This document shows positions 11,545-28,834 of a DNA stretch of 28,834 bases, piece after piece. The first letter of the stretch is position 1. Each line of letters begins with the position of its first letter. Source of the stretch: a virus. Below the pieces are notes generated by a model. That model was given only the letters and a program-made list of their open reading frames with translations. It ran no database searches and was not told where the DNA came from. The stretch covers positions 1 through 28,834 of IMG/VR virus record IMGVR_UViG_3300017781_000080. The stretch is one strand, 5' to 3'. The translations under genes were made by a program, and so were the position numbers.

Positions 11545-11580
11545 ATATTCCCCATGGGTTTTTTATATTGTATACGATTG

Positions 11581-11588
11581 TATTTATC
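11581..11588 (-). promoter_or_regulatory. Boundary motif GATAAATA, copy 1 (upstream of portal)
   Basis: Minus-strand TGTA-GATAAATA-CAATCG, 37 bases before the portal ATG. It is one of five copies found, all at transcription-unit boundaries in the same orientation. Promoter function is inferred, not shown. Confidence 0.5.
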
Positions 11589-11681
11589 TACATTACCAGT
11601 AAATTAGTGTTTATATGGTGTATAGGTGTAAGTATTAGTGGCTTGTCCTAACAAACCTACTCTGATTATAGAGACTAAAAG

Positions 11682-11719
11682 ACTACAATGACTTATAAGG
11701 ACCATTGTAGTTTTTTTTT
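11682..11719 (+). terminator. Rho-independent terminator preceding the plus-strand island
   Basis: Perfect 9-bp stem ACTACAATG / CATTGTAGT with a 12-base loop, followed on the plus strand by nine T. Outer A/T pairs can extend it. On the minus strand it is followed by CTTTT, so it may act weakly both ways. It lies just before the -35 box at 11731 and would insulate that promoter from read-through. Confidence 0.8.
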
Positions 11720-11730
11720 GGCTAAAAAGG

Positions 11731-11758
11731 TTGACTTCTAGACTAATATGTGTATAAT
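11731..11758 (+). promoter_or_regulatory. Sigma70-type promoter P1
   Basis: TTGACT at 11731-11736, a 16-base spacer, and TATAAT at 11753-11758. The predicted start, about 7 bases downstream, falls at the A of the ATG at 11765. It is near-identical in layout to P2. Confidence 0.85.
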
Positions 11759-11764
11759 AACATT

Positions 11765-11998
11765 ATGAATATAGAAACTTTACTAGACGATTTAAAAAGT
11801 GCAAAACTTCAATTGGATAGTGCTATTGAAGATTTGGAACAATTTATTTACAATAAAGATAAACACCATTCTTATAATATGAATCAATTGCAACTTGTTT
11901 TTGCAAATACGGCTGATGTATCTGCAATAACAGAATTATCTTCTGAAGAACTAGAGACAATTGATGATAATATGCTCTTTGATAGATTAAAAGGTTGA
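11765..11998 (+). CDS. Small acidic plus-strand protein, apparently leaderless
   Basis: A 77-residue protein beginning MNIETLLDDLKSAKLQLDSA, Leu/Asp/Glu-rich and probably all-helical (IEDLEQFIYNKDK, TELSSEELETIDDNML). It is the only convincing coding gene on the plus strand. No Shine-Dalgarno is possible because the TATAAT of P1 lies 6 bases before the ATG, so the mRNA should be leaderless; an in-frame GTG at 11750 lies inside the promoter and is rejected. A strong promoter, small size and acidity suit an early regulator or host-takeover protein, but no family is recognised. Confidence 0.65.
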   Translation: MNIETLLDDLKSAKLQLDSAIEDLEQFIYNKDKHHSYNMNQLQLVFANTADVSAITELSSEELETIDDNMLFDRLKG

Positions 11999-12022
11999 CT
12001 TTGATATCAAAAGAAGTATAAT
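11995..12022 (+). promoter_or_regulatory. Sigma70-type promoter P2
   Basis: TTGACT at 11995-12000 (overlapping the stop codon of the 77-residue gene), a 16-base spacer, and TATAAT at 12017-12022. The sequence AAAGGTTGACTT is shared with P1. The predicted transcription start is near 12029. Confidence 0.85.
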
Positions 12023-12028
12023 TAACTA

Positions 12029-12233
12029 CTGTAGCAAGAACATTTAACATTTTTATTATTATATAAGGAAAGTGTAAATTTATGTAGTGTATTGCAGTTC
12101 TTTATAGTGAGGGTTCACTATGTGCTACACTAGAAGGGTTATTGGGTAACATATCCTCCCGGATATTAACTTAAATTATTTAATTAACTTGAATAGTTAC
12201 TGTGTTTATTAGGCTCAATAACCCTTTTATTTT
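12029..12233 (+). ncRNA. Structured small RNA, about 205 nt
   Basis: No open frame of note lies between P2 and the U-rich end. The 5' half holds a hairpin ATAGTGA/TCACTAT with a GGGT loop (12104-12121), enclosed by UGUAG/CUACA. The 3' half is a multibranch structure closed by TAGAAGGGTTATTG (12131-12144) with CAATAACCCTTTTA (12216-12229), containing GTAAC/GTTAC (12146-12150 with 12196-12200), ATATCC/GGATAT with loop TCCC (12151-12166) and TTAAA/TTTAA (12171-12183). TTTT follows. A CCTCC run in the second hairpin resembles the anti-Shine-Dalgarno sequence. No known RNA family was recognised. Confidence 0.6.
12131..12233 (+). terminator. Terminator closing the structured RNA
   Basis: A 14-pair stem (one G-U) between 12131-12144 and 12216-12229, followed by TTTT. 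It encloses about 70 bases of internal structure, which is unusually large for a simple terminator, so it may be both RNA scaffold and transcript end. Confidence 0.55.
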
Positions 12234-12302
12234 CCACATACTAAACTACCAACCATAACTTAATAATTGCTTAGACGGCGTCTGTGAGGTTCATTATTCA
12301 TG
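12234..12302. other. Gap between convergent terminators, with nested inverted repeats
   Basis: No gene seen. AATAAT (12262-12267) and ATTATT (12293-12298) flank AGAC-GGC-GTCT (12273-12283). This could be an operator or simply part of a terminator region; nothing further supports either. Confidence 0.35.
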
Positions 12303-12335
12303 AAAAAACCCTACTATGGCCACACAATAGGGTTT
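12303..12335 (-). terminator. Rho-independent terminator of the packaging operon
   Basis: On the minus strand AAACCCTA, a 14-base loop, TAGGGTTT, then six T in all. It lies 68 bases after the 55-residue gene. It separates the packaging block from the structural operon, implying a separate promoter for the portal operon. Confidence 0.85.
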
Positions 12336-12402
12336 AGTATGTTATTAGCCCACACAAACTCTGACAGAGCTACCCAAGATAAAACTTATAACACAACAAT
12401 AT

Positions 12403-12570
12403 TTATACTGTTATGGTTTCTATTTGTTCTTGTTGTTCTGGTGCTTCTGGTAATGTGAATTTGAATCCGTAACTTTGTGCAATACGTCTTTGTATTTCTT
12501 CATGAGGTATGTGCTTACCTCTGTATTTGCCATAACGGTATCTAGTTGTTGCTCTGTGTTTTGTTCTCAT
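12403..12570 (-). CDS. Small basic protein (55 residues)
   Basis: ATG at 12570 overlaps the preceding stop (ATGA), with SD GAGGA about 9 bases upstream. The N-terminus is very basic and aromatic (MRTKHRATTRYRYGKYRGKH); the C-terminus is Pro/Glu/Gln-rich (LPEAPEQQEQIETITV). A nucleic-acid-binding role is conceivable from the charge pattern only. It is the last gene before the terminator. Confidence 0.65.
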   Translation of the reverse strand: MRTKHRATTRYRYGKYRGKHIPHEEIQRRIAQSYGFKFTLPEAPEQQEQIETITV

Positions 12571-12746
12571 CTTAAGTATTCCTCGTGTTTGAATGCACCC
12601 ATTCTGCCTGCTTCATAACGTGCATATCCGTCTAGTTCTTTGGCAGTTTTCATTGTCCATGTTTTGTTAATTTTCTTTACTGTCATATCCTTTTGTGTTG
12701 TGCTTGTTCTAGGATACCAATAGAATGTGTATGTTTTTGTTATCAT
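12567..12746 (-). CDS. Small protein (59 residues)
   Basis: Starts MITKTYTFYWYPRTSTTQKD, with the ATG overlapping the preceding gene's TGA (ATGA at 12746) and its own stop overlapping the next ATG, giving a chain of coupled genes. An internal ATG at 12686 would give 39 residues (upstream AAAGGAT is a possible SD), so the start is not certain. The C-terminus (ELDGYARYEAGRMGAFKHEE) is helical and charged. Family unknown. Confidence 0.55.
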   Translation of the reverse strand: MITKTYTFYWYPRTSTTQKDMTVKKINKTWTMKTAKELDGYARYEAGRMGAFKHEEYLR

Positions 12747-13139: not shown

Positions 13140-14404
13140 TATAGTCTCCTTCTACTGTGTGCATAGCCTTTATCTCGTTGACGTGTTATACCAAAGTTTT
13201 GATACACTAAGTATCCTAATGCATCAGCGGCGTGATCTAGCACATTGTCCTTGTCTGGTATTCTAGTTCCTTCCTTGTAACTCATTTTGATAAACATTTC
13301 TCTTATTTTTGCACATTTAGGATCTATCAATAAGTTGCGTTCACCTTTTGCATTACATAACAAACTGTTAACTGCATTTATTCTGTCTATTACTGGAGGA
13401 TTGGTTTTGCCCACTACTAACTTGAATCCATTGTTAGCAAGTATAATGTGGTCACTCTGATTACTGTTAGTTGACTTGTGACTGCCACTTGCATCTGGAT
13501 AACACACATAGTTTCTATTTGGGTAACGTGTTTTTATTTCATTAATCATTTCATATGTGTTGCTTTGATATATCTCTATAAAGTCTATCACATGTAGTTT
13601 ATTACCGTTCATATAACCTATCACAGCACTCATAGGACTGTTGTTAAAGTCCATGCCTATGTGTATGGTGCGGAGTTGTTCTACTGGGAACTCATTGGGC
13701 TGTATATTATCCTCGCTAAAGGATGTATAAATAATTCCAGAATAATCTTGGAATTCTGCTAAGAACTCTTGGGCAAATTCGCGAGAATCTAAATCTCTTT
13801 TGGCACTTTCTATTTCTTCTTCTGTAATCCAACCGCCATCTATTGTTCTATATGTGTGCGTATTCCATTCTTGTTCAGCGCCGGCTTTAACATACAAGTC
13901 ATAGAACCAGTTGCCTTTCCCCTTGGGGGTCCCTATAAACAATGCCCCACCTTTTGTATCTGCTAACATAGGTCTACATATAGTGCTCCATACTTCAGGG
14001 TGTAAGTCAGCACACTCATCCATAACAATATAGTCGAAGCGTGATCCACGTAAGCTCTGAGGAGAGTCTGCAGATCGAATGAATATTTTGCTATCATTCT
14101 TCAATGTAATAGTTAAGTCTGATTTGTTTACGTTTTTAATCCAGTTTTTAGAATACAGTCTATCTAGAAGTTCATCCCAAATCACCGTTTTTGCTTGTCG
14201 ATATGTGCTGTATAATGCCAACACTCTTTGCTTTGGCTTTACACTATGTTTGGCTATTTCATTAATGGCTAACATTGACTTTCCAAAACGCCTGCCAGCC
14301 ACCACTATGATAAATCGGGTGGAATCATTAGATATAATTTGCTGTGGTTTTGAAAGTTTCAAACATGTCTCCATGTCTTGCGTATAATGATATCTCTGAT
14401 ACAT
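13139..14404 (-). CDS. terL: Terminase large subunit
   Basis: A 421-residue packaging motor. The ATPase domain has Walker A at residues 36-43 (AGRRFGKS), Walker B at 124-130 (DYIVMDE) with catalytic Glu130, and the coupling motif near FIGTPKG (residues 157-162). The C-terminal RNase H-like nuclease has candidate metal ligands Asp252 (GMDFNN), Asp304 (YPDASG) and the D-H-A-A-D-A motif at 390-395. It cuts the concatemer and drives DNA into the prohead through the portal. An ATG at 14374 (residue 11) is a possible alternative start; neither has a clear SD. The 5' end overlaps an HNH gene. Confidence 0.95.
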   Translation of the reverse strand: MYQRYHYTQDMETCLKLSKPQQIISNDSTRFIIVVAGRRFGKSMLAINEIAKHSVKPKQRVLALYSTYRQAKTVIWDELLDRLYSKNWIKNVNKSDLTITLKNDSKIFIRSADSPQSLRGSRFDYIVMDECADLHPEVWSTICRPMLADTKGGALFIGTPKGKGNWFYDLYVKAGAEQEWNTHTYRTIDGGWITEEEIESAKRDLDSREFAQEFLAEFQDYSGIIYTSFSEDNIQPNEFPVEQLRTIHIGMDFNNSPMSAVIGYMNGNKLHVIDFIEIYQSNTYEMINEIKTRYPNRNYVCYPDASGSHKSTNSNQSDHIILANNGFKLVVGKTNPPVIDRINAVNSLLCNAKGERNLLIDPKCAKIREMFIKMSYKEGTRIPDKDNVLDHAADALGYLVYQNFGITRQRDKGYAHSRRRL

Positions 14405-14862
14405 CCAGGTGTAACAGCATAGTCTTTTGCAATGCCACCTAATCCATCTGCATCACTTCTTCTCACATAACGTGCTCTTATATCAATGATGTCTGCTTCT
14501 TTGAGTTTACTCATTTTGTGTTTTGAGCCCACAGTCATTGTGCCTGCATCACGTATCCTATCCCATACTTCTTGTTGACTGTTTAACTTCATATGATTAG
14601 GATTGCAACACATTTTATTACCGCATGATGTGGTTATTCTCAATTTACCTTCTATAGGATTAGCATATAGTCCTTGACTGTGTATCCAAACAAAACGTGT
14701 GCATCTATGTAGTGTTCCCCCGGCGGCAAACAAACCGTAGCCATGTCTTGTAGGTGATAGTTTCCAATCCCAACATTCATCATCACCTTTACGGTCAACA
14801 TGACACCAGAATCTATCTATATCCTTTTGTGTTATTGGTTTTATTTTTCTTTTATACGGCAT
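14359..14862 (-). CDS. HNH endonuclease with C-terminal HTH
   Basis: 167 residues from ATG 14862 (MPYKRKIKPITQKDIDRFWC); the ATG at 14889 would overlap the preceding gene. An ECWDWKLSPTRHGYGLF core and a C-G-N-K-M-C-C-N-P-N-H-M-K-L metal-binding block are typical HNH elements. The C-terminal 50 residues (from KLKEADI to TWRHV) look like a helix-turn-helix and match in pattern the C-terminus of the second HNH gene. Such proteins next to terminase can be packaging nicking factors (HK97 gp74 is the known example) or homing endonucleases. Confidence 0.8.
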   Translation of the reverse strand: MPYKRKIKPITQKDIDRFWCHVDRKGDDECWDWKLSPTRHGYGLFAAGGTLHRCTRFVWIHSQGLYANPIEGKLRITTSCGNKMCCNPNHMKLNSQQEVWDRIRDAGTMTVGSKHKMSKLKEADIIDIRARYVRRSDADGLGGIAKDYAVTPGCIRDIIIRKTWRHV

Positions 14863-14869
14863 GCTTATC

Positions 14870-15115
14870 TCATTTGTCCCACGGATCATTATCCCAAGGA
14901 TGCGGTTTCATTCCTCCGCCTGGTGGTATAATAACATCATCATCGTCCCAAGTGTATGTAGGCTTTTTAATCTTTTCGAACATCTTTCTCACAGCATACG
15001 TTTCTGGATCTAATGCTTCTTCCAAATACTCATCTATAGCCTGTTTTACTGCTTCATAGTCTTTGGGGTCATTACTTTTAAATCCAGTCATCTTCATCTC
15101 GGTAAGTGTCGCCAT
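14870..15115 (-). CDS. Hypothetical 81-residue acidic protein
   Basis: Acidic protein (WDDDDVIIPPGGG motif and PWDNDPWDK end). It overlaps the upstream HNH gene by 22 bases if the ATG at 15115 is used; ATGs at 15097 (overlapping the HNH stop as ATGA) and 15091 are alternatives, and none has a strong SD. Placed between two HNH genes in the packaging cluster. Function unknown. Confidence 0.5.
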   Translation of the reverse strand: MATLTEMKMTGFKSNDPKDYEAVKQAIDEYLEEALDPETYAVRKMFEKIKKPTYTWDDDDVIIPPGGGMKPHPWDNDPWDK

Positions 15116-15681
15116 GTTAAGTTACGGTGTATTGCTTCTATTGTGGAGGTATTTACATTAAGTATTTCACCTAACTTTTGTTGTGTTATTTTGTAGTGTT
15201 GTTCAATTACCCACAACACTTGCTTTTCAGTTAGTTTTGCATTGTAGTTGTCAGCACCTATGTGACTTGGTGGTTTGATATATCTGCCTTTGTTTATGCA
15301 GTCTTTGATATTGTCTTGAACTGTGCCTAAGAATAAATGGTCTGGATTAACACATGCTCGATAACTTATGTCATTGTTTTCATAATGTTGGTCACAGTCA
15401 TGTAACACACATAGTTCATTAACATCCTCTTCTTTGAACTTGCCACTTATAAATGCACTGAATCTATGTGCTGTGATGTAACGCAAACGTCTACCGTCAA
15501 CGTCATCATACTTATACCACCAATTCTTGTAGCCATTGTTTTGAACATTGCCCATTAAGAATATACATCCGTTTGGTTGTTCTTCACATTTGGCATGAAA
15601 CCGGTCTATGTAATGTTGTTCTATATTGTGAACGTGGTGGTCTTCACCAGGAGGGCCGCTCTTCTTTACACCTTTAGACAT
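15094..15681 (-). CDS. HNH endonuclease with C-terminal HTH (second copy)
   Basis: A 195-residue protein with the classic phage HNH_3-like block: AHRFSAF, then V-L-H-D-C-D ... C-V-N-P-D-H-L-F-L-G-T, then DNIKDCINKGR. The first His/Asp and the second H (NPDH) form the catalytic/metal site. The C-terminus KLTEKQVLWVIEQHYKITQQ through TWRHLPR is a helix-turn-helix paralogous to that of the other HNH gene. Starts at TAATG of the membrane-protein gene. Probably a packaging nicking factor or homing enzyme inserted in the cluster. Confidence 0.85.
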   Translation of the reverse strand: MSKGVKKSGPPGEDHHVHNIEQHYIDRFHAKCEEQPNGCIFLMGNVQNNGYKNWWYKYDDVDGRRLRYITAHRFSAFISGKFKEEDVNELCVLHDCDQHYENNDISYRACVNPDHLFLGTVQDNIKDCINKGRYIKPPSHIGADNYNAKLTEKQVLWVIEQHYKITQQKLGEILNVNTSTIEAIHRNLTWRHLPR

Positions 15682-16461: not shown

Positions 16462-16786
16462 TATAGTTGATAAAACCGGACACTTTAGATGGTGTAGTGC
16501 CTCTTTTTATGTTGTGATTCTTGTATTTGTGGCTTTTGTATGCATACCATTCACCTAATATAAATGCATGGTCTAATAAAAACTCCCTAGTTGACACATA
16601 CAACTGCTGTAAGTATGCAATATCTTCTCTGTCTAGAGTTTGATGTTTTTCATAATGATGTGTGATACGTCTTATGTCATAATGTAAATGTTTTGGCTTA
16701 TCACTGTATGTGCTAACGTGACTGTTAACATTTACGTTACAGATTAAATGATTGGCATGTGCAATAAGTGTTACTATGTCTGTCAT
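16457..16786 (-). CDS. Hypothetical 109-residue protein
   Basis: His/Tyr-rich protein (ANHLICNVNVNSHVSTYSDK, then RRITHHYEKHQTLDREDIAY). Helical in its central part, with no membrane segment or known motif. No Shine-Dalgarno is seen before the ATG, so expression may depend on coupling or be weak. It sits between the polymerase-like gene and the packaging genes. Confidence 0.5.
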   Translation of the reverse strand: MTDIVTLIAHANHLICNVNVNSHVSTYSDKPKHLHYDIRRITHHYEKHQTLDREDIAYLQQLYVSTREFLLDHAFILGEWYAYKSHKYKNHNIKRGTTPSKVSGFINYR

Positions 16787-16818
16787 ACATATACTTATTA
16801 AACATAGTGTTAATTGGT

Positions 16819-16983
16819 TTACTTACACTGATATATGCGTTGTTTGGTCAAGTCACAAGGTGTGCAATAACTATCTACTACTGCTTGAAGTAACATAATA
16901 CGTTCGAATTCTTTTCTCAACAAATACAATTCAGCATCTAACTTACTGCGATGTATAACAGGCTTTGATTGTTTAAACTTCAT
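16819..16983 (-). CDS. Small protein (54 residues)
   Basis: The start is set at ATG 16983 (MKFKQSKPVIHRSKLDAELY), which has SD GGAGAG 6 bases upstream and overlaps the end of the polymerase-like gene by 11 bases; an upstream ATG at 17052 would lie deep inside that gene. The C-terminus contains C-T-P-C-D-L and ends YQCK. Basic and helical; function unknown. Confidence 0.6.
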   Translation of the reverse strand: MKFKQSKPVIHRSKLDAELYLLRKEFERIMLLQAVVDSYCTPCDLTKQRIYQCK

Positions 16984-18430
16984 ATAGTTCTCTCCATGCT
17001 TTTTTATCTGCTTGTTGTTGATCCCACTGAGTAAAACTTTGTGTATCTGCAAATTTACTTATAAAATCTTGTGCTAACTGTTCTTCTTGTTGAGGTGTAA
17101 TAACATAATAATCAGCTGGTCTACTCCAGTCCTCTATTTTTTCTTCTGTGAATGTGGCATAACGCCATAAAGGATCTAAATGTAAATAATAGTTTAAGTT
17201 ACCTATACCTTGTGGCTTCTGGGTATACACACAATCATGCACCCACAACAAACTATCTCCCTTACAGTTTGCAAATACTTTTTGCATTATTTCAGTTTCT
17301 GCTTGTTGATACAGTTTGCTTTCTGCTCGGCTTTGACTGTAATTTTGACCTTTGTCTAACTGTAAGTATTCTTTAAGTGCTGGCTTGCCAACATCTTCTA
17401 ACAGTAGTTCAGTAAACAGATTAAGTTCTGATTGAAGTTCTTTTACATACCAATGTTCAACAAAACGTTGCCTGTCTTCTATACTGTATATACTGTCTTT
17501 GAGACTACCAAAAGGTCCTGCTTTTGCACCAAAGCCCAGCATGTTAAGTGCATCTTTAACATACTTTGTTTTTTCTTTGTGTGAGCCTCTAGTTAGTGTT
17601 AAACATTCAGTTACTAATCTGTGTCTCACAACTGTTTTATTTTCTACTAGTTCTTTTAATGCTGGTGTTTTTGCATTGGGCTGTCTTAGTTTGATATAAC
17701 CTAATTTAAATGCATAAGCGGCACTTGATATGTCATACTTGTAACATTTACCTAATGCGGCTTCTCTTACTGTGGTGCTAACAGTATTTTGTATGTTAAC
17801 TCCTTTAGCATAGTATCTACCATATGGTTTTAGTTCTACACTCATTGGCAATACACCATTATGTATTCCGGCAACATCTAGTATTTCATTAGCACCACAC
17901 ACATTACGCATTACTTTGTCTTTTTCTTTGCCTTTTGCTAGTGTTGGGTAATACTCACAACTTTTAACAATAAAGTTGATTAAACTCTTTGTGTTGATAG
18001 GCACATTCCAATCAGCATCAGTTATTTCTGTGTATATACTGCTGAAGTCATTATTACTTCTGTATTCAATTAATTCTGGCATTGACACTAAACTTTTAAC
18101 TTCACTAGGCATTGGTTTATTGCTCAATATGTTGCCTTTTTGTATCATCATGTATAATGGGTAATTTGAGTTTAACCAATCAAGCCATCTCTTACCTCCG
18201 TTATATCTGTAATCAAAGTCTTGTCTAATATGTGTTACATACAGTTGACTGTTGCCATTTTCTAACTGTATTGCTTTGCCTAACTCATTAACTGTTTTAA
18301 GCAAGTATTCTGTTGCAATAGATTCATAACTAGTTCCTCTATTACTTTTATTGCTTTTAGGTGATATTTTGTTCATACCGGATACTATGTCAGTTACACT
18401 TGGTATTGAGTTATTACTTTTCTTATTCAT
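16973..18430 (-). CDS. Putative compact single-subunit polymerase (Pol A / T7 RNAP palm superfamily)
   Basis: A 485-residue protein with three ordered motifs. Motif A-like: KCYKYDISSAAYAFKLG with Asp233. Motif B-like: K292-D-A-L-N-M-L-G-F300-G301-A-K, aligning with the K-x7-Y-G-S-K motif of T7 RNA polymerase (K631 to Y639) and K-x7-Y-G of Pol I. Motif C-like: LLWVHDCVYT with His398-Asp399, close to the W-V-H-D of T7 DNA polymerase and the I-H-D-S-F-G-T of T7 RNA polymerase. Spacing (59 and 107 residues) is close to that of Pol I. A GRYYAKGVNIQNTVST segment precedes motif A. No exonuclease domain or T7 RNAP N-terminal domain is visible. DNA versus RNA product cannot be decided. SD AGGGA precedes the ATG; promoter and iterons lie directly upstream. 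Confidence 0.5.
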   Translation of the reverse strand: MNKKSNNSIPSVTDIVSGMNKISPKSNKSNRGTSYESIATEYLLKTVNELGKAIQLENGNSQLYVTHIRQDFDYRYNGGKRWLDWLNSNYPLYMMIQKGNILSNKPMPSEVKSLVSMPELIEYRSNNDFSSIYTEITDADWNVPINTKSLINFIVKSCEYYPTLAKGKEKDKVMRNVCGANEILDVAGIHNGVLPMSVELKPYGRYYAKGVNIQNTVSTTVREAALGKCYKYDISSAAYAFKLGYIKLRQPNAKTPALKELVENKTVVRHRLVTECLTLTRGSHKEKTKYVKDALNMLGFGAKAGPFGSLKDSIYSIEDRQRFVEHWYVKELQSELNLFTELLLEDVGKPALKEYLQLDKGQNYSQSRAESKLYQQAETEIMQKVFANCKGDSLLWVHDCVYTQKPQGIGNLNYYLHLDPLWRYATFTEEKIEDWSRPADYYVITPQQEEQLAQDFISKFADTQSFTQWDQQQADKKAWRELYEV

Positions 18431-18491
18431 TTATTTTCTTTCCCTATTATGCTCTCATGTAGGTGTTATTAGTTTATTATATACTATATGC

Positions 18492-18541
18492 ATGTATATC
18501 AAATTTTCCAAGATGTATATCAATGTCAAGATGTATATCAA
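18492..18541 (-). repeat. Three iterons (TTGATATACAT) at the early promoter
   Basis: Plus-strand ATGTATATCAA at 18492-18502, 18513-18523 and 18531-18541 (start-to-start 21 and 18 bases); copies 2 and 3 share CAAGATGTATATCAA. They start at the predicted transcription start of the promoter at 18547-18576. They could be a repressor operator or a replication-origin initiator array next to the polymerase-like gene. Confidence 0.75.
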
Positions 18542-18546
18542 AGTTT

Positions 18547-18576
18547 ATTATAGCACACATATAGGTTAAAAGTCAA
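18547..18576 (-). promoter_or_regulatory. Sigma70-type promoter P3 for the polymerase/packaging operon
   Basis: On the minus strand TTGACT (18576-18571), an 18-base spacer, and TATAAT (18552-18547). The predicted start is near 18540, inside the third iteron. It uses the same TTGACT -35 as P1 and P2. The first gene downstream is the 485-residue polymerase-like protein. Confidence 0.8.
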
Positions 18577-18582
18577 TATTGT

Positions 18583-18816
18583 TTAGTAATTAGGAGTGCC
18601 AATATGCATATAACTATATGCGTTTGAAACTAATTCATTGCGTTGTTTAGGATTGTATAAATTACCATTTTCTAAATATTCAGTATCTCCTACCATATAC
18701 ACATCATGGATATATTTAAGTTCACTACCGGCATTGAATAACATTTTTTTAAGTTTGTTGTTTTCTTCTTGAAGTTTATACAGTTTACTGTCAGTTATAT
18801 TTGTTACTTTACTCAT
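18583..18816 (-). CDS. Hypothetical 77-residue protein with coiled coil
   Basis: The N-terminal 35 residues (DSKLYKLQEENNKLKKMLFN) form a short coiled coil; the rest is Tyr/Asn-rich without a known motif. Starts at TAATG of the upstream gene (18816). It ends only 7 bases before the -35 box of P3. Function unknown; a dimeric regulator is possible. Confidence 0.55.
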   Translation of the reverse strand: MSKVTNITDSKLYKLQEENNKLKKMLFNAGSELKYIHDVYMVGDTEYLENGNLYNPKQRNELVSNAYSYMHIGTPNY

Positions 18817-19184
18817 TACAATAACCCTACATTTTTTGCAACTTGATACAATGTTTCATGTCTATCACAACGTTCAGTTATAGTAAACTTAGCATCTGCA
18901 TTAACAAGTTCAGAATTTTTAAACAGTTGTGTAGACTTTTTGCCTTTTGATTTACCAAATACGCCCTTAATAACTAAAGCATTTTGTTTATAATCTTCAT
19001 TGTCTATCTTTTGCCATTGTGCATAGTTAAAATTGTTTTCACTGACGTAAGTAAAACAATGCTCAAAGTCATTGTCTATGTCTAGCATTTCTATTATTCT
19101 CACGGTAGATCCAACCTCTGAAGAAGAATTACCCCATGGGTTAACCTGTATTATTACATATTGTTTGTGTTGTTTATTTTTCAT
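18816..19184 (-). CDS. Hypothetical 122-residue protein
   Basis: Beta-rich start (QYVIIQVNPWGN), a central acidic stretch, and a basic patch KGVFGKSKGKKSTQLFK. No known motif. SD GAGGA lies about 7 bases before the ATG, and a TATAAT (minus, 19206-19201) lies about 20 bases before it. First gene of the early block after the terminator region, so probably early expressed. A single-stranded DNA-binding function could be considered from size and position but no motif supports it. Confidence 0.55.
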   Translation of the reverse strand: MKNKQHKQYVIIQVNPWGNSSSEVGSTVRIIEMLDIDNDFEHCFTYVSENNFNYAQWQKIDNEDYKQNALVIKGVFGKSKGKKSTQLFKNSELVNADAKFTITERCDRHETLYQVAKNVGLL

Positions 19185-20663: not shown

Positions 20664-22328
20664 TTATGCTTGTCCACCATCTGTAATTGTCCAACCTGGG
20701 TTTGAACCTCCTGAGCTTACTAAATATGCTCTGGCGGCTACTGCATCACTATATGGCGAACCTGTGTATGTTGTATTATTATACGTTACGTTTGCGGCTC
20801 CTAATGTTATACTTGCTGGTGAACCACCAGCATTACTTACAAAATTTGCCCAACCAATTAGTGTTTTACTGTAATTTTCTGTGCTTATTGCACTATCGTC
20901 TAACATGTTAGCCATTGTAGTTATACTAGATAAGTTCCAACCGCCTATGTTACTGTTAAATCCTTTGTTTCTTATAAATGTGTTACTTGCTACACTTAAA
21001 CTAGATGTATTCCAACCGCTTGGGTCCATCACAATGTTTGCGTTAGAAATTACGTCTAGAGAAGGATCTATTCCGGAAATCAAAAGGTTGCCACCAAATG
21101 CTTTATGCATAGTTGTTACATTGCCAACATTTAAGCCATCAATGTTAGGACTTCTTTGCAAGTCATGTCCATATGAATTCATAAATCCTTCCATACTTGT
21201 AACTTTGCTTGTGTCAAAACTGCCTAAATCTAAAACACTATTATACGGTAATACACTTCCTATTCCTGCATACCGCACACCAAAAGTGTTAGCCATGTTT
21301 GTAACATTAGATGTGTTCCAATTTTGCGGATTTGAACCTAAATTTTGTGCACCTCTAAAAGAATCTTCTAAAGTAGTTACGTTTATGGTATTCCATTGAC
21401 TACAATTTGCTAAACCACATTCAGCACCGTCAAATATTCCTTTCATATTTGTAACACTTGATGTATCCCATTCACCTATATCAGGATTCACCGGTCTACC
21501 ACTGTAATTTTCAAATGTTCCTTGATGACTTACTATAGCGCCTGGTTCACCATTGCCTGCAAAACACTCCTCCATTGTTGTAACATTGCCAGTGTTCCAA
21601 TTTGACAAACTGCCTAAATAATATGATGATGCAAAAGTGCGTTTCATGTTTGTAACATTTGATGTATCCCAACCATTTAAAGTTGCTGTAGTAAAATCTC
21701 CACTTGCCCCAGTTGAAGACCGTTCAAATGCACTTTCAAAAGTGCTTTCAAGATTAATTATATTGCTAGTTGCGTCAGTTGCCCAACTAAGTCCGGATAA
21801 ACCTTTACTTGCAAAACTTCTTTGTTCAAAAGCAGATTTACCATTTGTTTCTGCGTTAGGACTATCATTTCTCATACCAAAAAACATTAATGCACAATTT
21901 GAATTTGCAGGCAATTTAGGATAATCTAGAGCATTTATAGCCATGGTGTTAGTATCTTGACTAACGTTAGAAAGAAATGCTCTGCTTTGGTCTGCAATGT
22001 ATGAAACATTGCCCCATCTATCAATAGTTTTTATTCTTTCTTCTTCTGTTGTGGACAAACTACCAAAATCATATTTGCCCATTGAGCCTTGCACTCTTAT
22101 TGTTACATTTGCACTTGATGAATATGTGTGCGTTGCATTTACGGTGCTACCTGTATGAGTATAAGTATCATTAACGTTGCCAGTGTCATCCCAAAATACA
22201 GTAAATTGTTCTGAACTAGTTCCTACAAATGGCAAACTTACACTATTGTCACTAGGATTTACTTCCATTTGTATTTGAAATGTTTTGTCAGGATTAGCAT
22301 CTGCTAATTTTCTGTAATAAGCACTCAC
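20664..22328 (-). CDS. BspA-like repeat protein, putative receptor-binding/fibre tip
   Basis: 554 residues with a GTG start at 22328 (SD AGGAGA 9 bases upstream, inside the end of the fibre gene). Residues 1-100 contain a PKD-like beta segment (THTYSSSANVTIRVQG). About residues 185-470 carry nine or ten DUF285/BspA leucine-rich-type repeats of the form W-[DN]-T-S-[NKS]-V-T-[NT]-M-x3-F. The C-terminus matches the closing module of BspA proteins: LIGWANF ... AARAYLVSSGG ... GWTITDGG. Bacterial BspA proteins are surface adhesins; here the place after the long fibre suggests host recognition. No signal peptide is visible, consistent with a virion protein. Confidence 0.8.
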   Translation of the reverse strand: MSAYYRKLADANPDKTFQIQMEVNPSDNSVSLPFVGTSSEQFTVFWDDTGNVNDTYTHTGSTVNATHTYSSSANVTIRVQGSMGKYDFGSLSTTEEERIKTIDRWGNVSYIADQSRAFLSNVSQDTNTMAINALDYPKLPANSNCALMFFGMRNDSPNAETNGKSAFEQRSFASKGLSGLSWATDATSNIINLESTFESAFERSSTGASGDFTTATLNGWDTSNVTNMKRTFASSYYLGSLSNWNTGNVTTMEECFAGNGEPGAIVSHQGTFENYSGRPVNPDIGEWDTSSVTNMKGIFDGAECGLANCSQWNTINVTTLEDSFRGAQNLGSNPQNWNTSNVTNMANTFGVRYAGIGSVLPYNSVLDLGSFDTSKVTSMEGFMNSYGHDLQRSPNIDGLNVGNVTTMHKAFGGNLLISGIDPSLDVISNANIVMDPSGWNTSSLSVASNTFIRNKGFNSNIGGWNLSSITTMANMLDDSAISTENYSKTLIGWANFVSNAGGSPASITLGAANVTYNNTTYTGSPYSDAVAARAYLVSSGGSNPGWTITDGGQA

Positions 22329-27329: not shown

Positions 27330-28834
27330 TTAAAATAGATCCCTTAAACTGTCACCTGCTCGTAATCTTTCTAATGTAAAATTAGGTTTACCAGCGGTGT
27401 TTGGATACAATGTGCTAAATGCGGATGGTTGTGATGATACTTGTTTTGGTATATACTTCTTACCAGTTGTAGTAACTCCAGCCGCCTGAGCAACTGCCAA
27501 TCCTCTTGCTTCACTTATTTCAAGAGTATCATTTTCAACTACTGCTGGTGGTAAATTATTAAAGGTTGCACCTATTCCACTAGTTGATTGTGCATCTTGA
27601 ATTGTAGTTCCTGTTGGCTCATTAGTTGTTTCATCAACTTCTGTGTAGTCGACAGTATTAAATACTGCAAAACCTAGAGCTCCTCCTCCGCCTGGTAATG
27701 TTCCGAATGGTTGAAAGTCGCTTTTTAAACCATATTTTCCTAAGTCTGCTCCACCTAATGGTGATACAGTTGCTGGAACAATAAAACTTGCTGGTTCTCC
27801 TAATGCAGTAGGAATAGCATTGTTTATGCCTATAGTTGCACCACTGGCTACATTAACATTTATATTTGTAGTAATACTGCTGTTACCAGTAACTGCTGTT
27901 ATCACAGTAACTGGAGTAATTCCAGTTCCACTTAAAACACCACCTACAATTAAATTTGGATATCCTTCCTCATTAAATGTCAAAGTGTTTCCTGTAAATG
28001 CTCCTGTGGTAGTGTAAAACAATTCACCTGCCATTGGCATTACAGCCGCCGCAGGTGCTTCGTCAACACTAAATCCTACTGCCTGACTGGCTAATGATGC
28101 TCCTGGAATACCACCTTTATTGTCTAAGACAATTTCTGGAACTGTTGCTGATGGCAAAGTAGTAAATTTACCTTGGTCACCAATACCGTGTCCAAATACT
28201 CTTATGTCATACTTAGGTTCTTTTACATTAGGTAAATTTGGTAATGCTGTGCCATCGGCTTTTTCAGAAGTAGGATTTTCTGGCAAAGGTAATGCAATAA
28301 AAGGAATTTCTGATGGTGCCCAACTACCGCCTAATGGGTTTTGAATTTTAAATTTATTAAGTATTTTTTGTTTTGGTGAACCTGTTCCTGTTTCAGTTGC
28401 TACTTCAATTTCTATTTCATCTAATCCTGGAATATCTGGAATTGTTATTGGAAGAACTGCTAATGGTGTTTCAGGCGTAGATGTAATGCCTCCTTGTCCA
28501 CCTTCACCTCCAATTATAACGTTAGGCCAATCAATAGTGCTGTAATCTATTGGTGAGCCAACTACATTACCATTACCTGGGTCTACAATATTTGCTGTAG
28601 CATTAGCAGGATCTGTAATTACAATATCTCCAATAATAGGAATACTAGCGGTGCCTCCCCAAATACCTGTCCACCATCCAGGTATACCACTTACTCCTAC
28701 TGCACCATCACTTTGCAATACGGTGTGAGCATATATACTGTCGTCATATTCAATACAAGTAAACTTAGCACCTAACATCGCATCTGCTGTTTCTACTTCT
28801 GTCATTAACTAAATTAAATCTAGTGTCCAGTGGA
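27330..28834 (-). CDS. Tail tip/hub protein, C-terminal part (frame disrupted above 28802)
   Basis: C-terminal half of the hub gene that begins at 1402. Residues after VTEVETADAMLGAKFTCIEY are identical in the left-edge copy. The region is Gly/Pro/Ile-rich and beta-type (GGTASIPIIGDIVITDPANA; TTGAFTGNTLTFNEEGYPNL), ending LERLRAGDSLRDLF. An apparent start, ATG at 28805, is an artefact: the ATG is made where a 173-base deletion joins codons out of frame. No SD precedes it and a stop lies just upstream in frame. True coding should run 1402 to 1, then 28750 to 27330 (2823 bases). Confidence 0.75.
28751..28834. repeat. Right terminal overlap with internal 173-base deletion
   Basis: 28751-28802 equals 1-52 with one mismatch, and 28792-28834 equals 215-257 exactly. 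The fused copy breaks the hub reading frame (173 is not a multiple of 3). Confidence 0.95.

Follow-up and report, generated by a model that had tools for sequence, protein, structure and literature searches.

The TV-Pol family was described by Iyer, Abhiman and Aravind in 2008 and predicted to prime (PMC2579912); its hallmarks are a bi-helical thumb ahead of the palm, a beta hairpin with an absolutely conserved arginine, an RxxxK motif in the fingers and a common, not universal, association with a D5-like helicase. Priming by another A-family polymerase of a mobile element is established, as CCPol together with MP does prime, and CCPol prefers dNTPs (PMC7581432), whilst barbaviruses encode divPolA2, which is without a recognisable thumb and accompanies a PolB (PMC11348598). 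Here, we compare these systems with a 485-aa protein encoded by a viral stretch of 28,834 nucleotides analysed at full length (IMG/VR record IMGVR_UViG_3300017781_000080; hereafter the window). We consider, with a probability of roughly 0.6, that it is a minimal TV-Pol-like polymerase of superfamily A serving as a replication initiator.

Terminase, portal and tape measure genes show the window to be the genome of a small marine siphophage, probably a complete one, because its ends overlap (bases 1-52 and 28751-28802, 98%). It is circular or terminally redundant, and the join contains a minor assembly error; between 1-257 and 28751-28834, the 52-nt, 98% overlap is followed by a 43-nt exact match out of register. 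Elsewhere in the window, the genes for the small and large terminase are separated by those of two HNH-endonuclease-like proteins (14359-14889 and 15094-15681), each with a helix-turn-helix-like C-terminal part, and the ~1.2 kb that separates portal from terminase genes (11545-12742) holds almost no convincing gene, with one 82-aa plus-strand ORF and no tRNA or Rfam match. A protein with WNTSNVTNM-type repeat units (20664-22328), perhaps receptor-binding, is encoded beside the tail-fibre gene, and its coding repeats surface as DNA repeats.

The 485-aa protein is encoded on the minus strand at 16973-18430 by an ORF with an ATG start, the plus strand of the same interval being stop-rich. Searched alone, the sequence gave no matches in Pfam, PHROGs, NCBIfam, PDB sequences or, by tblastn, phage genomes; PADLOC yielded no match, and two scans of genome contigs detected no relative. 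The original prediction had proposed a polymerase from D233 in YDISSAAYAFKLG, K292, F300-G301 and WVHDC with H398-D399 at spacings of 59 and 107, all of which we verified in the ORF. By itself this motif triad is modest evidence for a polymerase, and homologues were needed because it is only moderately unusual, a loose D-K-x7-[YF]G-HD pattern being present in 0.6% of shuffles of the protein. Related phages in IMG/VR were reached via a terminase search and one carried a homologue (L011, 51% identity), whilst iterated scans with core alignments led to L103, L106, L104, L108, L110, L116, L117 (partial) and L118, bringing the phage homologues to nine and the family, with the window protein, to ten. 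Their 10-row alignment (A9) has 21 invariant columns, including R205, Q214, R222, Y232, D233, R269, K292, F300, G301, Y374, E378, H398 and D399; the motifs are therefore real, and the two catalytic aspartates, whose variation among homologues had been named as grounds for abandoning the proposal, are constant in 10/10. The most similar homologue pair, L103 and L106, is under purifying selection (dN 0.14, dS 0.87, dN/dS ~0.16), and a Pfam or PHROG match that counts was found for none of the ten members.

An AlphaFold2 model built from the ten rows (mean pLDDT 78, pTM 0.64; palm and fingers mostly ~90) has the thumb-palm-fingers fold of superfamily A. VIA-align matched 270-280 residues within model range 130-434 to Pol theta (Z 17.3), Klenow (Z 16.2, a comparison that the original prediction had proposed) and T7 DNA polymerase (Z 15.7), and Foldseek was in agreement with an A-family polymerase fold (E 8e-6). 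The strongest matches in a viral fold library were to phage proteins that are uncharacterised (E 1e-24). Next came replication proteins of virophages (Zamilon and Qinghai Lake virophage among them) and of giant viruses, together with phage PolAs. The model begins with an N-terminal domain (residues 1-137; 18020-18430, minus strand) that the PDB alignments, beginning around residue 130-138, leave uncovered. Its helix-strand-helix-helix-strand-strand order, taken from the secondary structure of the model only, may be that of a winged helix, and no homology was identified for these residues. A bi-helical thumb (147-163 and 168-189) precedes the palm. The earlier description of a minimal enzyme devoid of both exonuclease and promoter-binding N-terminal domains is accordingly half right: the exonuclease is absent, and an N-terminal domain of ~137 aa is present.

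Four motifs, all on the minus strand, occupy this fold in a Pol I-like arrangement. Motif 1 (R205-YYAKGVNI-Q214-N215; 17786-17818), which the original prediction had missed, is the equivalent of Pol I GRLSSTDPNLQN (GR...NLQN); R205 and Q214 are invariant in 10/10, the motif lies on beta hairpin 193-200/206-209 of the model, and the R+9=Q spacing of R205-x8-Q214-N215 matches Pol I R668...Q677. Motif A (Y232-D233...A238-Y239; 17714-17737) carries the catalytic D233 in predicted strand 229-235, with A238 at the steric-gate position of Pol I E710. Motif B (K292...N296...F300-G301; 17528-17557) accompanies an O-helix-like helix (284-299); K292, F300 and G301 are invariant, N296 takes the Pol I F762 position and F300 that of Y766 or T7 RNAP Y639. 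Motif C (H398-D399; 17234-17239) is invariant and forms the turn of modelled hairpin 393-397/400-403. The predicted placement of D233 in its strand and of D399 in the turn of hairpin 393-403 is as in Pol I, and the superfamily-A palm, with its motif A strand Asp and motif C turn His-Asp, is found in 10/10 and in the model. Like DNA polymerase I and T7 DNA polymerase (PF00476), the protein thus combines this fold (Z 15-16) with motifs 1, A, B and C; it differs from them in its missing exonuclease domain, its lost sugar-gate residues and the lack of any PF00476 match at E<=10 in the window or its relatives, whereas control genomes do match. Direct hhalign of the family against Pol A was weak (prob 4, E 0.0098), so the family link to Pol A is drawn through the predicted fold and TV-Pol-like intermediates.

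Those intermediates are phage and plasmid proteins. Microcystis phage Ma-LMM01 gene MAP_030 adjoins transposases and has the same motif set as the 485-aa family, and by this context we take it as the Ma-LMM01 TV-Pol of PMC2579912. One Polaromonas plasmid protein is hit by MAP_030 in tblastn (E 2e-4), and two are hit by phage homologue L110 (E 6e-6 and 8e-3). The family HMM finds Polaromonas plasmid proteins at 5.5e-26 and 1.9e-20, as well as a 373-aa protein of close relative L007 at 6.4e-7, though L007 is not in the model. In hhalign, A9 was aligned with a MAP_030 plus Polaromonas profile at prob 98.9 and E 1.9e-17, all four motifs falling in register, against E 0.29 for the reversed control; the TV-Pol-like proteins reached Pol A at E 2.8e-5. 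On plasmid pH8NP1 (L101:2287-3792) the TV-Pol-like polymerase is labelled 'Clp protease N-terminal domain-containing protein', a probable misannotation, and on pW9NP1 a repA-annotated gene comes after the homologue.

With the TV-Pols (MAP_030, virophage polymerases) and the pH8NP1 and pW9NP1 proteins, the 485-aa family shares the thumb, the hairpin arginine (R205, 10/10) and the palm/fingers core, two catalytic aspartates, the absence of an exonuclease and carriage in small mobile DNA. It departs from them in the fingers, where K292 is invariant but the residue four positions before it is Thr, so that the Arg of RxxxK is absent, a trait shared with MAP_030 and the Polaromonas plasmid proteins. 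In motif B it has Phe where TV-Pols have Tyr (Asn in MAP_030), and it has A/S/V/M at D+5 (TV-Pol His) and T/N/A at K+4 (TV-Pol Leu). Its setting beside siphophage terminase genes is also different, and no match to PF19263 (D5-type) or DnaB helicases was found in any carrier record, some of which are fragments. divPolA2 is likewise a divergent phage PolA that has no exonuclease and carries an N-terminal domain without known kin, but differs in its thumb and its PolB companion (PMC11348598); hhalign against divPolA2 AUR84708 (single sequence) gave no match (prob 0.2, E 0.25).

On the strength of the invariant motifs, the AlphaFold2 fold matches and the TV-Pol-like profile link, the protein is a minimal nucleic-acid polymerase of superfamily A, made up of N-terminal domain, thumb, palm and fingers, lacking an exonuclease and closest to the TV-Pol group. 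That it is a polymerase at all is highly probable. A chance resemblance of motifs in some other protein, which the missing database matches for the single sequence and the 0.6% of shuffles would allow, is scarcely credible, being already largely refuted by invariance over ten homologues, the model fold and the profile links.

The residues governing sugar choice set the family apart. The Pol I E710 position holds Ala238 here and A/S/V/M across all ten members (Val in L104, read from the alignment), and the F762 position holds Asn296 here and N/T/A across all ten; neither Glu710 nor Phe/Tyr762, on which sugar selection by Pol I depends, is retained. The original assignment of Phe300 to the position of T7 RNAP Tyr639 (Pol I Tyr766) was borne out (Phe in 10/10). 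In T7 RNAP, the E710-equivalent position is Gly542, which belongs to a set of four residues near the incoming nucleotide, and the Y639F change widens ribose acceptance (PMC4551944). CCPol-MP and PolA-SSB primases (PMC7581432, PMC10061031) resemble the present case as A-family polymerases of mobile elements with a possible small partner encoded nearby, but CCPol keeps both the E710 and F762 equivalents and uses dNTPs, whereas the 485-aa polymerase has lost both. From these substitutions we would predict weak discrimination between rNTPs and dNTPs. A small residue at the Gly542 place and Phe at that of Tyr639 would also suit a T7-like single-subunit RNA polymerase transcribing phage genes, the transcriptase alternative of the original prediction. 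This role is highly improbable because DNA polymerases account for every fold match listed, with single-subunit RNAPs absent among the best 50, and no T7-type promoter-like repeat family is seen across the genome; hhalign against T7 RNAP (single sequence) gave no match, and the gene is itself preceded by a sigma70-like promoter.

Synteny (blastn) and ORF comparison with close relatives place the gene in a swap slot at 16784-18820 (minus strand). In L003, the two flanks are kept at 94% and 82% identity and the block between is replaced, and L005 and L022 likewise keep the flanks around a replaced block. The slot holds a 245-aa gene in L003, a 113-aa gene and ~490 nt of non-coding DNA in L005, and in L007 the 373-aa TV-Pol-like gene, whose divergent product groups with the plasmid proteins in a tree and whose genome has nearly the same terminase as the window. 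The L003 slot protein (L003:1237-1974) belongs with those of 11 other loci to a family of 181-251-aa proteins that share a conserved basic core and in some members have an N-terminus of low complexity; the L003 protein has no PHROG or Pfam match, and the family is a possible alternative initiator. At L005:1290-1800 and L008:3340-3930, where there is no polymerase, a 110-113-aa gene is followed by ~500 nt of conserved non-coding DNA with apparent compensating stem changes, possibly a structured RNA, and Rfam returned no match in the replaced slot or near the polymerase gene.

Slot exchange bears directly on how much of replication the enzyme could perform. The original prediction had noted that no other replication enzyme is recognised in the window, which stands, and had raised the idea of a sole replicase. 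A role as the phage's chief elongating polymerase, extending host-made primers over the entire genome, would accord with that solitary status and with the DNA polymerase fold and catalytic residues, but we consider it unlikely: neither a homologue nor a PF00476 match is found in L003, L005 and L008, relatives of the same size (29.0-29.4 kb records) with nearly identical terminases, others carry a very different homologue, and the protein comes with no exonuclease and no helicase match. An accessory gene in a cargo slot, encoding a repair, recombination or counter-defence polymerase unneeded for replication, is no better than a minor possibility. The slot is certainly variable, a methyltransferase-like gene appearing in L087, L091 and L092, and two close relatives are 49% different in polymerase with nearly identical terminases; against this, PADLOC found nothing, homologues in divergent phages sit immediately upstream of terminase genes, and repeats are tied to the polymerase gene. 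The methyltransferase-like protein of these more distant relatives (349-429 aa; CPPYFDLELY, by eye; L091:2831-4120, L092, L087) is encoded near the slot, upstream of the small terminase.

A sigma70-type promoter (TTGACT-18-TATAAT with TG before the -10; 18547-18576; 11/12 in a consensus scan) precedes the polymerase gene on the same strand. Between it and the gene are three iteron-like direct repeats sharing TTGATATACAT, ~70-110 nt ahead of the ATG: TTGATATACATCTTG at 18527-18541 (0/300 shuffles reach it), a second copy at 18509-18523, and the shorter third at 18492-18502, all on the minus strand. Their 10-mer core, TGATATACAT, has no further copy elsewhere in the window. Repeats of at least 12 nt within 250 nt upstream are found in six of the nine full-length A9 members (window, L011, L103, L106, L110 and L118), a count that leaves aside the divergent L007 and two plasmid genes, which have none. 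Those at the corresponding place differ in sequence, being ATTTGATATAACCG in L011, ATTTGATAGTGCAG in L103, TTGATAGTGGAC in L106 and 18-19 nt long in L110 and L118; L108 has an imperfect pair (by eye), none are evident in L104 or L116, and the promoter-repeat layout of L103, L106 and L108 is similar (read by eye). Control ORFs of related loci reach 12 nt in 7/659 cases, which represent two distinct genes, one that recurs in five overlapping loci and directly follows the L007 polymerase, and another that apparently occurs in two. This enrichment is indicative, since the controls and homologues cannot be counted as phylogenetically independent, L103 and L106 being close. Directly downstream of the 373-aa polymerase gene, L007:7249-7273 contains a tandem 12-13-nt repeat, ATAGTGTATTACC.

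The upstream repeats are spaced 18-23 nt apart, as repeated binding sites are in iteron origins or operators, and could be only an operator. We nevertheless favour a primase-like role, and replication-initiating primase-polymerase is the best reading of the protein's function, with about an even chance of being correct. The lack of helicase matches in carriers, the priming precedents of TV-Pols and CCPol and the gene-linked repeats count for it; against it count the missing RxxxK Arg, the absence of evident repeats in L104, L116 and L007, and the dispensability of the gene for the phage lineage, since relatives lack it. In the initiator mechanism that we envisage, the N-terminal domain, or a partner, would recognise the gene-adjacent repeats, which may double as an operator for autoregulation. 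The active site would then lay a primer on opened DNA, probably with little selection between rNTPs and dNTPs, after which the genome would be copied by the helicase and Pol III of the host replisome. One candidate partner is the small conserved 122-aa protein encoded upstream of the polymerase (18816-19184, minus strand; alignment A11), which has no database match, is also present in relatives without the polymerase and, at a guess, might be SSB/OB-like. A more far-reaching and decidedly tentative proposal is that this single gene starts replication. Its product would be a superfamily-A primase-polymerase that binds the origin by recognising its own cognate iterons, tolerates ribose, has no accompanying helicase and passes replication on to the host replisome; gene and iterons would travel together between small siphophages as a module that can be exchanged.

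Phages of ~29 kb can show no recognisable replication enzyme, and the family described here escapes Pfam and PHROGs and yet is a polymerase. Gain, loss and replacement within one slot of near-identical genomes provide a clean case of replication-module swapping. With both ribose-excluding residues of Pol I gone, the enzyme also offers a test case for the evolution of primase activity and sugar choice in superfamily A.
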